Assembly: GCA_023511725.1 (NCBI GenBank)
Contig: JAIMAY010000015.1
Coordinates: 1 to 57,523, forward strand
Source of the DNA: Alicyclobacillus sp.
Lineage (GTDB): Bacteria > Bacillota > Bacilli > Alicyclobacillales > Alicyclobacillaceae
DNA: 57,523 nucleotides
Direction of reading: 5' to 3'
The notes beneath the pieces were generated by a model. The model did not search any database. It had not been told where the DNA came from and saw nothing but the letters and a program-made list of their open reading frames with translations. Positions 1 to 36,322 of this stretch are shown here, one piece after another; position 1 is the stretch's first letter; each line of letters begins with the position of its first letter. A program made the position numbers and the translations under genes.

Positions 1-356
1 GGAAAAACCGCGTTATCCCACCGGATCGGCGTCCATACTGCCCCGATAAGACGGAAAACCCGCCTTATCGGGCCAGAACCGCGCCTGCGTTGGCTCGATA
101 AGACGGTTTTCCCCTGTTATCCGGCCGGACCGACGCCCGCGTGGCGCCAATAAGGCGGAAAACCCGCGTTCTCCGGCCGGATCGGCCTACGCGAGGCCCT
201 AATAAGACGGAAAACCCGCCTTATCCGGCCGGATCAGCGTCCGTACCACCCCAATAAGCCGGCAACCCCCGGTTATCCGGCCGCCTGGGCATCCGTATCA
301 ACGCAACAAGGCGGCAGATGCGTGTTATCCCGTGGGACCGGCCGCCAAACTGCGCC
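1..356. repeat. Tandem array of a 52-bp palindromic unit, 6 full copies plus a partial
   Basis: Units start at 45, 97, 149, 201, 253 and 305, exactly 52 bp apart. Positions 1-44 are the tail of another copy, so the array continues outside the window. Each unit has a well-kept left part of about 35 bp and a more variable right part of about 17 bp. The left part is an imperfect palindrome with arms like GATAAG...CTTATC and an inner CGG...CCG. Position 7 against 19 of the unit reads A/C, A/T, G/C, A/C, C/G, G/T, which suggests pairing is maintained. No gene is seen in 1-452 apart from this array. Its role is unknown. Confidence 0.85.
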
Positions 357-452
357 AGACGGTCGTCTCCCCTCTTCCCGGTCATGTGCGGTATGCTGGA
401 GCCAGCGACAGTAACGCGACTCGCCCAACCGACTGAAGGGAGCAGACCCTCG

Positions 453-1505
453 ATGTTCCTTCGGGAGATCCATTTCACGCTGGACGACGTACGCGCTCAC
501 GGAGAGACGCACGGGGCGAGAACGACGGCCCATCCGGCGCTCGGCGCCAGTGCCGGTGCGCCGTCCCAAGCATCCAGGCCGGCTGAGCGGCGCCACGCCA
601 GCTTCGACGCGTCCGCATCCGAGCCGCCCCAGCCAGGGCCCACGCCCACGACGCCTACGCCGCCCACACCGCAGCAACCTCCCCGGACGCCCGCCGCGCG
701 AACCGCCGGTCGCGACGACGACGGCCCCGGCCGCGCACCGGGTTATCCGTTCCGCCTCCCCATCTGGCGTGACCTGCGCACGCTCCGCTTCACAGCGCCA
801 GTCACCATCTTCGTCGGCGAGAACGGTAGCGGCAAATCGACCGTGTTGGAAGCCATGGCGGTGGCAGCGCGGGCGTGGACGGTGAGCTCGGCGCGTGCCG
901 AGGAGCTGCCGGATCTGGCGGGCATGCTGCCGTTGGCCGAGTACACGCGACTGGTGTGGAACGGGCGGCCCCGGCGGACGTGGTTCATCCGTGCGGAGGA
1001 TTTTACGGTGCATGCACAGGCGCTCGCGCAGCTCCAAGCGTCGCTGGAGGAGGGACTGCGCGAGCTGGACGAGGAGTATGCGGCCAAGGGCGACAAGAGC
1101 ACGTACGCCCACCAATTGGCGCGGATGCCGCTCGCGGGGTCTATCGCGGCGCTGAGGCGGGCGTATGGGGAAGGGCTTACGGCGAGATCGCACGGGGAAG
1201 GTTTCCTGACGCTATTTGAGCAAAAACTGCGCGGGCCGGCGCTGTATCTCATGGACGAACCTGAAGCTGCACTTTCGCCGCTGCGCCAACTGTCCGTGCT
1301 CCGCTGGATGCATGAAGCAGTGGGTGAAGGCGCGCAGTTCATCCTGGCAACGCACTCGCCGCTGCTGATGGCCTATCCGGGGGCGACGCTTGTTTCGTTC
1401 GATCACGGCCTGCGCCCCATCGCCTACGATGATCTGCCGCACGTCCAACTGTATCGCGATTTTCTGCGCGATCCGGCTCGATACCTGCACCATTTGCTCA
1501 CCTGA
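453..1505 (+). CDS. AAA family ATPase (AAA_21 type) with Pro-rich insertion
   Basis: A 350-residue predicted cytosolic ATPase. Visible motifs are Walker A GENGSGKST at residues 122-130, a Walker B-like ALYLMDEPEAALS, and the switch strand ILATHSPLL. These place it with small stand-alone SMC/ABC-like AAA_21 ATPases. An unusual Ala/Pro/Thr-rich stretch of about 80 residues (roughly 14-95) separates the first strand (FLREIHFTLDD) from the strand before the P-loop. From memory, relatives run almost directly from one to the other. The start at ATG 453 is preferred because GAAGGGAG lies upstream. An upstream in-frame start at 318 would begin inside the repeat array. No specific role can be assigned. 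Confidence 0.75.
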   Translation: MFLREIHFTLDDVRAHGETHGARTTAHPALGASAGAPSQASRPAERRHASFDASASEPPQPGPTPTTPTPPTPQQPPRTPAARTAGRDDDGPGRAPGYPFRLPIWRDLRTLRFTAPVTIFVGENGSGKSTVLEAMAVAARAWTVSSARAEELPDLAGMLPLAEYTRLVWNGRPRRTWFIRAEDFTVHAQALAQLQASLEEGLRELDEEYAAKGDKSTYAHQLARMPLAGSIAALRRAYGEGLTARSHGEGFLTLFEQKLRGPALYLMDEPEAALSPLRQLSVLRWMHEAVGEGAQFILATHSPLLMAYPGATLVSFDHGLRPIAYDDLPHVQLYRDFLRDPARYLHHLLT

Positions 1506-35747: not shown

Positions 35748-35761
35748 TGAAAGCGCTATCA
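35748..35761. promoter_or_regulatory. cre (CcpA-binding) site at the riboswitch transcription start
   Basis: TGAAAGCGCTATCA fits the degenerate cre consensus TGWNANCGNTNWCA at every position. It lies 6 nt after the -10, covering the expected start of transcription, and precedes the aptamer. Confidence 0.6.
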
Positions 35762-35883
35762 AACGCCGAATCCCCGGGACGGCCGGGGAACGGGGGACCC
35801 ACCGCTCTGGGGTTTATTCCGCCGAATGGCGGAAGGGGTGTCCTTTGCCACCCTAACCCGTCAGCTAACCTCGTAGGCAAAGG
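35762..35883 (+). promoter_or_regulatory. c-di-AMP riboswitch (ydaO-yuaA type)
   Basis: The region contains the hallmark elements of the ydaO aptamer in order: GCCGAATCC, GGGGAACGGGGGACCCA, TGGGGTTTATTCC, AGGGGTGTCC, and the strongly conserved 3' block AACCCGTCAGCTAACC followed by TCGTAGGC. GCC near 35765 and GGC near 35876 can close P1. Only about 17 nt separate its end from the start codon at 35900 and no terminator is seen, so control of translation is more likely than termination. CCTTTGCC (35842-35849) is complementary to GGCAAAGG (35876-35883) and could form a competing helix. Confidence 0.88.
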
Positions 35884-35899
35884 CAAGGGGAGTCGGGAG

Positions 35900-36322
35900 A
35901 TGTCGAGGATACTGGTCGCCGCTTTTGGTGAACAGGGGCAGCTGTATGTGCACGGAATCCGGCAACTGGGCGCGCAGGTTCGGGTGCTGGATTGTTTTGA
36001 GGAATATCACGCGCAGCTCTGCCGGTGGTACGGTACGGATGTCCTGCAGGTTCAGGGGCGGCGGGTGGACGTCAGGCGCGCCGTCGCACGCGAGCGCTTT
36101 GACGCTGCCGTGGTTCAGGAGTCTCCGGACTTTATTCGGTCGGCGCTGATCACGCAGTCGCTGCGGGAAGCCAATGTACCGCGTATCCTCGTGGTCACGG
36201 GTGATCCGGAACATGCGCCGATGTTCCGCCGCTGCGGCGCGCATCAGGTGTTTTTGGCGCGCAATCCAGAAGAGGGATGGCGGGCGGTCGCGGGGCACCT
36301 GCCGGTGATCGCCAGCGCCTGA
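35900..36322 (+). CDS. Stand-alone RCK_N/TrkA-N-like protein under riboswitch control
   Basis: A 140-residue Rossmann-type protein. It aligns by eye with the RCK_N half of KtrA/TrkA: AAFGEQGQ replaces the usual GxGxxG loop (first Gly lost), the acidic residue after beta-2 is kept (VRVLDCFEEY), and the later strands FDAAVVQE, VPRILVVTGD and GAHQVFLA follow in order. The RCK_C half, which binds c-di-AMP in KtrA, is absent, and no KtrB/TrkH channel is adjacent. ydaO riboswitches commonly control potassium uptake, so a role in K+ homeostasis is inferred. ATG 35900 follows AAGGGGAGTCGGGAG. Confidence 0.6.
   Translation: MSRILVAAFGEQGQLYVHGIRQLGAQVRVLDCFEEYHAQLCRWYGTDVLQVQGRRVDVRRAVARERFDAAVVQESPDFIRSALITQSLREANVPRILVVTGDPEHAPMFRRCGAHQVFLARNPEEGWRAVAGHLPVIASA

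Follow-up and report, generated by a model that had tools for sequence, protein, structure and literature searches.

The window (the whole stretch of DNA analysed, 57,523 nucleotides) holds a tandem array of 25-bp imperfect palindromes, spaced by 52 bp, in its first 356 nucleotides (Table 1). The window begins at base 1 of contig C50, and the contig start cuts the array short. An earlier note, made from the letters alone, had described an exact 52-bp palindrome array, and indeed the six palindrome starts lie exactly 52 bp apart with half a unit ahead of them, the last copy being degenerate. TRF likewise reports a period of 52 bp at positions 1-283 (5.4 copies, 70% matches), together with a period of 104 bp. 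On its right side, facing the AAA ATPase gene, the array is decayed, and positions 253-380 are 88% identical over 128 bp to the matching edge of another array, on contig C29. The sole Rfam match in the window is a c-di-AMP (ydaO/yuaA) riboswitch at 35754-35894, upstream of a gene called at 35900; a second copy of this riboswitch lies on contig C29 (L039:4575-4761).

Table 1. Features at the left end of the window, in window coordinates
Feature	Position	Strand
Truncated first unit: right dyad half (1-17) and spacer, cut by contig start	1..44	+
Dyad 1, GATAAGACGGAAAACCCGCCTTATC	45..69	+
Dyad 2, T-rich centre, one core mismatch	97..121	+
Dyad 3	149..173	+
Dyad 4	201..225	+
Dyad 5	253..277	+
Dyad 6, degenerate	305..329	+
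Decayed right edge	330..380	+
AAA ATPase gene (Pfam AAA_21, AAA_15), neighbour by position	453..1505	+

A dispersed intergenic family in the window's genome

The window's own genome (G000; 2.66 Mb in 76 contigs) has 86 places that match the array at E values up to 10. In purB its closest named relatives belong mostly to Alicyclobacillus, which would place G000 in the Alicyclobacillaceae. An iterative matrix applied to 22 stretches of this genome recovered 171 units in 27 intergenic groups on 19 contigs, two of the groups being single units, and none in shuffled sequence. A matrix for the 25-bp palindrome (at least 10 bits) found 177 palindromes in 138,652 bases and none in one shuffle; the shuffle controls for the unit, palindrome and dyad counts were plain rather than dinucleotide shuffles. 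Neighbouring units up to 200 bp apart are separated by 52 bp in 139 cases, the other spacings being 51 (5), 53 (5), 62 (1) and 104 bp (1); the constant period anticipated for copies elsewhere holds in these bases. None of the 27 groups overlaps a called gene (calls were made with a codon-usage script). With a similar non-coding tandem repeat at this many loci, the window array is, as judged by sequence, a member of a dispersed, lineage-specific intergenic satellite.

The main unit reads (C/G)ATAAGGCGGAAAAACCGGCTTATC and then CGCCyCGCCGrGGCCGCGATCGCGCCr. The earlier note had divided the unit into a conserved palindromic half and a variable half of about 17 bp; the constancy of 52 bp stood, whereas the variable half did not, the part between palindromes being 27 bp long and largely conserved in the other arrays of this genome. 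The second half of the unit often carries a GCGATCGC dyad whose 4-base centre varies and which lies three turns, or 31.5 bp, away from the centre of the main dyad. This motif is not enriched outside the arrays, where base composition predicts 6.4 copies and 5 were observed across 180,491 bases.

Five arrays, on contigs C5, C11, C29, C50 and C75, were classed by eye as a second type, to which the window array belongs; all are located at or near contig ends. In the remaining arrays, likeness among units is higher inside an array (0.855) than from one array to another (0.773), a difference reached in 0 of 500 permutations, and edge units score below inner units. Among all arrays of this genome, only two complete units are identical between stretches (L032/L036 and L040/L049). 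The within-array likeness and the decay at the edges are the result of local tandem expansion. The same features would be expected of a neutral or selfish satellite that no protein binds, growing by slippage and unequal crossing-over, in which the shared dyad simply reflects descent from one old repeat. The patchy distribution across genomes described below also fits such a satellite.

Seven of the 27 groups lie less than 500 bp from a contig end, where 0.77 would be expected. The assembly thus breaks at these arrays, their lengths are unreliable and the copy number is probably underestimated. It might also be taken to mean that the array is itself an artefact of assembling one repeat at a contig edge, a possibility raised in the earlier note. 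However, the other 20 groups are not within 500 bp of a contig end and two other assemblies have array versions of their own, and we regard the chance of an artefact as negligible.

Both neighbouring genes are known for 19 of the intergenic regions, of which 11 are codirectional, four convergent and four divergent. Units share one orientation in 25 of the 27 groups, the other two being the single units, and there is no bias of orientation relative to genes: in the 11 codirectional regions the array runs with the genes in five and against them in six, which argues against an RNA element. The gene families beside the arrays are diverse in this genome and in the two other carrier genomes introduced below (G019 and G037), so a common neighbour gene was rejected. 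Prolyl-oligopeptidase (S9) genes lie near one array in G000 (L048:3932-6004) and one in G019 (L185:4004-5965), with 52% identity over 660 residues; this coincidence may be due to chance. Contig C28 holds four unit groups within 6.1 kb (L038:2086-8197), far denser than elsewhere.

Spread of this kind could also come from a recombinase or transposase that recognises the dyad, perhaps as an extruded hairpin, and mobilises the units. Apart from the dispersal to 27 groups on 19 contigs, eight groups lie within 3.1 kb of another group (simulation p 0.007, with gene space ignored), and a DDE transposase gene adjoins one array. One insertion-like case can be seen by comparison with relatives. The DUF6282 gene is present in 20 of 40 family relatives, and in all 11 relatives examined it is followed by a PIG-L gene, with the aligned ends 0-75 bp apart, whereas in G000 the two genes are separated by 294 bp that contain an array. 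On the other side, the Y1 (RAYT-type) transposase family PF01797 has no match in G000, while 5 of 14 control genomes are positive, and recognition of a hairpin would not predict the helically quantised spacing reported below. We therefore consider a transposase substrate quite unlikely.

The unit itself seems confined to this lineage. As an exact pattern it is absent from a collection of 84,980 species, from which its own and very near genomes were possibly left out, and BLAST did not find it in 60 relatives. A sequence model built from 46 units gave at least 167 matches in G000 at E values up to 1; searched with strict filters, and with 143 candidates scored per genome, it gave marginal hits, six in number (best E 0.0019), in four of the 40 family relatives, and no relative among the 40 shows an array of the G000 type. 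Carriage by phages was rejected, the unit having no viral match and a looser form of the core occurring just once per stretch in 24 viral stretches. Carriage by plasmids was rejected as well, on the basis of one G019 array that has no match in 72,556 plasmids; a 3-kb window query against the plasmids found its best places only in an enolase-superfamily gene, in 14 records.

The surroundings of two arrays of the second type touch on rRNA genes. On C5 (L032:1-1026) the end of the 23S gene is followed by the 5S gene and then by the array, which begins about 140 bp past the 5S gene; the assembly has only one 5S match, so rRNA operons may be collapsed in it. On C29 the terminal part of a group II intron (L039:5-75) stands directly before sequence that on C5 trails the 5S gene and a terminator-like hairpin (95.5% over 89 bp between the two contigs). 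A class of group II introns inserts behind terminators, and the placement on C29 would be consistent with such insertion.

Arm pairing and dyad symmetry

The earlier note had further claimed that base changes in the palindrome arms largely keep pairing, which proved too strong. In the window's six units, positions 2/24, 4/22, 5/21 and 9/17 are paired in all six, 10/16 in five and 3/23 in four, and a standard pair occurs at 1/25 and at 6/20 in only two units each and at 7/19 and at 8/18 in four each. Across G000, stem pairs 2-6 and 9-10 vary little. A covariation test on 46 units found 82.2% of cells paired, against 83.3% after shuffling, and 433 of 500 shuffles reached the observed score. Of 119 distinct units, 36 form a pair at 7/19, fewer than the 45.9 expected, and the commonest state there is a G-G mismatch (67/119); these counts leave out 43 of the 171 units, namely those in arrays of the second type, with a score of 45 or less, or with N. 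Arm covariance is thus unsupported inside G000, where the variable positions pair no more often than by chance.

These results bear on whether the palindromes act as RNA hairpins, serving as terminators or mRNA stabilisers. Two-unit RNAs from five stretches do fold better than the mean of their shuffles, with z scores from -1.6 to -5.7, the weakest stretch being matched by 13 of 200 shuffles. Yet covariation is lacking in G000, the G-G mismatch prevails at 7/19, orientation is unbiased and arrays occur in divergent intergenic regions too, and helical phasing is a property of duplex DNA. An RNA hairpin with a covarying stem was rejected on the pairing, folding and shuffle tests taken together, and RNA hairpins in general seem to us very improbable.

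What does show symmetry is the rate of change. In 120 distinct units from 19 arrays, the inferred changes per position mirror each other on the two sides of position 13 (rho 0.85). Of the 104 centres tried none scores higher, and position 32 comes second (0.75). The quiet positions spell ATAAG, GG, AAA, CC and CTTAT, and changes fall on positions 1, 7, 8, 11, 15, 18, 19 and 25. The 17 quiet core positions, which were chosen after the pairing data had been inspected, have a lower rate of change than the 27 positions of the spacer (p 3e-7; for G/C positions alone, p 5e-4). A symmetric profile of this kind is the trace that would be expected from a dimer reading two half-sites, and it would be unexpected if the units were merely drifting as a neutral satellite. 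Of the readings in the earlier note, that of dyad sites rather than simple satellite drift is supported.

The dyad core and its spacing in other genera

The core, TAAG-NN-GG-N5-CC-NN-CTTA, is a dyad of 21-25 bp that recurs in two other genera of the same family, represented by G019 and G037. In its exact form, TAAGNNGGNNNNNCCNNCTTA, it occurs 107 times in G000, 86 times in G019 and 34 times in G037, and the remaining 56 genomes of the order have one site each at most; a reversed control pattern occurs 0, 1 and 0 times in these three and 0-3 times in the other genomes of the order. With one mismatch allowed, G037 has at least 25 sites and the reversed control none, and a stricter form of the core is found 78 times in G000 and no more than once in any of 397 further phylum genomes. 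Both BLAST and the unit model miss the G019 and G037 arrays, which means that these searches detect the unit and not the core, and arrays of another type may adjoin the AAA ATPase gene in relatives. Two further species of the G019 genus have no exact core site, and the arrays are therefore dispensable.

The 16 G019 and G037 loci studied, among the matches listed, contain 41 of the 86 and 25 of the 34 exact sites, and in none of them does the array lie inside a called gene. At one G019 locus there is just one dyad, flanked by genes for phosphoglycerate mutase and enolase. In G037, one array is placed between codirectional riboflavin-synthesis genes (L172:1665-4043; Pfam DHBP_synthase/GTP_cyclohydro2 and DMRL_synthase). 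Once the dyads had been masked, spacers matched each other (E 0.01 or better) in only one pair of the 16 loci, and no masked spacer matched any of the seven G000 loci included in the comparison. The AAA centre conserved in G000 is not conserved in the other two genera. That the spacers in G019 and G037 are mostly unrelated, yet the core and its phase are kept, again speaks against a neutral satellite, which we judge unlikely overall.

Some symmetric base changes appear when the genera are pooled. Pair 7/19 then takes the forms T-A, A-T and G-C/C-G and is paired in 109 of 185 distinct dyads (73.3 expected), and within G019 pair 10/16 changes from GC to CG, with 48 of 59 paired (37.1 expected); in G037, pair 2/24 is paired in 5 of 33 (10.2 expected). 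The pooled symmetric changes largely reflect base differences between the genera. Dyad symmetry fits a dimer site and a hairpin alike, but the phase of the spacings favours duplex DNA.

The earlier note had also proposed that the spacing is helically phased, each site being placed on the same face of the DNA. Since any period survives tandem duplication, the 52-bp array by itself is no guide on this point, and the spacings in G019 and G037 are more informative. At the loci studied they fall into classes of 41/42, 50-52, 62/63, 73, 82/83 and 94 bp, with two longer gaps. In G019 they form repeating triplets of 41-42-52 or 41-41-52, and also 82/83-52; in G037, 50-52 alternates with 62/63 or 73, and one array includes 154/155 and 179. 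The scan tolerated up to two core mismatches and so included weak dyads, and the shuffled control gave 3 dyad matches in 91,948 bases; in the spacing list for one locus (L182), 41 is counted once too often and a 52 is missing, without effect on the classes.

B-DNA has a helical repeat of 10.5 bp. Pooling 34 array-level spacings, with every class entered a single time for each array and the 52 bp of G000 added as one value, gave a best period of 10.5 bp in the range of 8-14 bp (R 0.93), with a phase near zero. When the classes were redrawn at random between 35 and 185 bp, 2 of 20,000 trials scored as high on phase; with each of eight classes counted once, 19 of 20,000 did. G019 alone peaks at 10.4 bp; for G037 alone a period of 11.6 bp fits slightly better than 10.5 (R 0.949 against 0.888), and the fit is poorer for its two longest gaps, 154.5 bp (14.8 turns) and 179 bp (17.1 turns). 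Among the departures from 52 bp in G000, the single spacing of 62 bp amounts to about one turn more. The pooled spacings of the three genomes therefore lie near whole helical turns, as had been proposed, the exceptions being the two longest gaps and the 11.6-bp fit of G037.

A possible protein site and its relation to known repeats

One core word in three genera, set in mostly unrelated spacers and spaced in helical quanta, points to a bound protein. We lean, with moderate confidence, towards a dispersed satellite whose dyads are one-face sites for a putative dimeric protein, the spacing serving, as we infer, cooperative binding. The selected part would then be the TAAG-NN-GG-N5-CC-NN-CTTA dyad, most likely recognised in duplex DNA. 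With sites about 4, 5, 6, 7 or 8 helical turns apart, successive dimers would come to lie on one face of the DNA, where they could contact each other, bridge or spread. The arrays themselves would grow and homogenise through local tandem duplication, and their presence would differ between related species. As a first guess, their role may be in nucleoid organisation or insulation. A bolder proposal, which we put forward only tentatively and hold to be doubtful, is that of an accessory chromosome-architecture system new to Alicyclobacillaceae, in which a putative dimeric DNA-binder confined to carriers would use dozens of one-face intergenic dyad arrays to nucleate bridging or spreading, and in which lineages would rebuild the spacers and keep core and phase. 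If this were true, a class of 'junk' satellites would be tied to chromosome architecture, and the patchy presence between sister species would become a question of one accessory protein.

Several known kinds of repeat were compared with the arrays. A CRISPR array was rejected, since the G000 spacers are alike within and between arrays, and so was a known Rfam element, no family lying inside an array in the 13 of 22 G000 stretches searched. None of the top-ranked literature matches, taken by title or abstract, was recognised as describing these arrays, and the element of PMC3119063, as far as that source describes it, is a different one.

REP and BIME elements are small extragenic palindromes of high copy number, often in regular clusters (PMC3733652, PMC2817692), and in these respects resemble the arrays. 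They differ in that the arrays keep one unit orientation in nearly every group (25/27) and show no bias to the 3' sides of genes in the tally of G000 regions. A GTAG or CGTC tag within 8 bases outside the palindrome, on either side and strand, was found in 1 and 11 of 170 units, respectively; with tags this rare and no PF01797 match in G000, a REP/RAYT identity was rejected.

In layout the arrays, a form of dispersed intergenic tandem repeat, are closest to STAR elements and dispersed satellites. In Staphylococcus aureus, STAR elements are scattered between genes as tandem repeats with a unit length near 50 bp; a G+C-rich direct repeat of 14 bp makes up their short conserved core, and the spacers of 40-44 bp are specific to the locus. 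Their abundance differs between related species, and their function and mechanism of spreading are described in that account as not known (PMC3532100). Intergenic tandem units with locus-specific spacers are found here as well, but the arrays have a 21-25 bp dyad core in three genera and spacings near whole helical turns. The STAR core T(G/A/T)TGTTG(G/T)GGCCC(C/A) was not found by eye in the G000 unit consensus. Dispersed prokaryotic satellites, that is, non-coding tandem repeats with long units transposed around one genome, are reported to be rare, with examples in Leptospira interrogans and Methanocella conradii; the main text of the survey that describes them does not mention Alicyclobacillus (PMC6749651). 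The present arrays differ from these satellites in that a dyad core and a helical spacing rule recur across genera.
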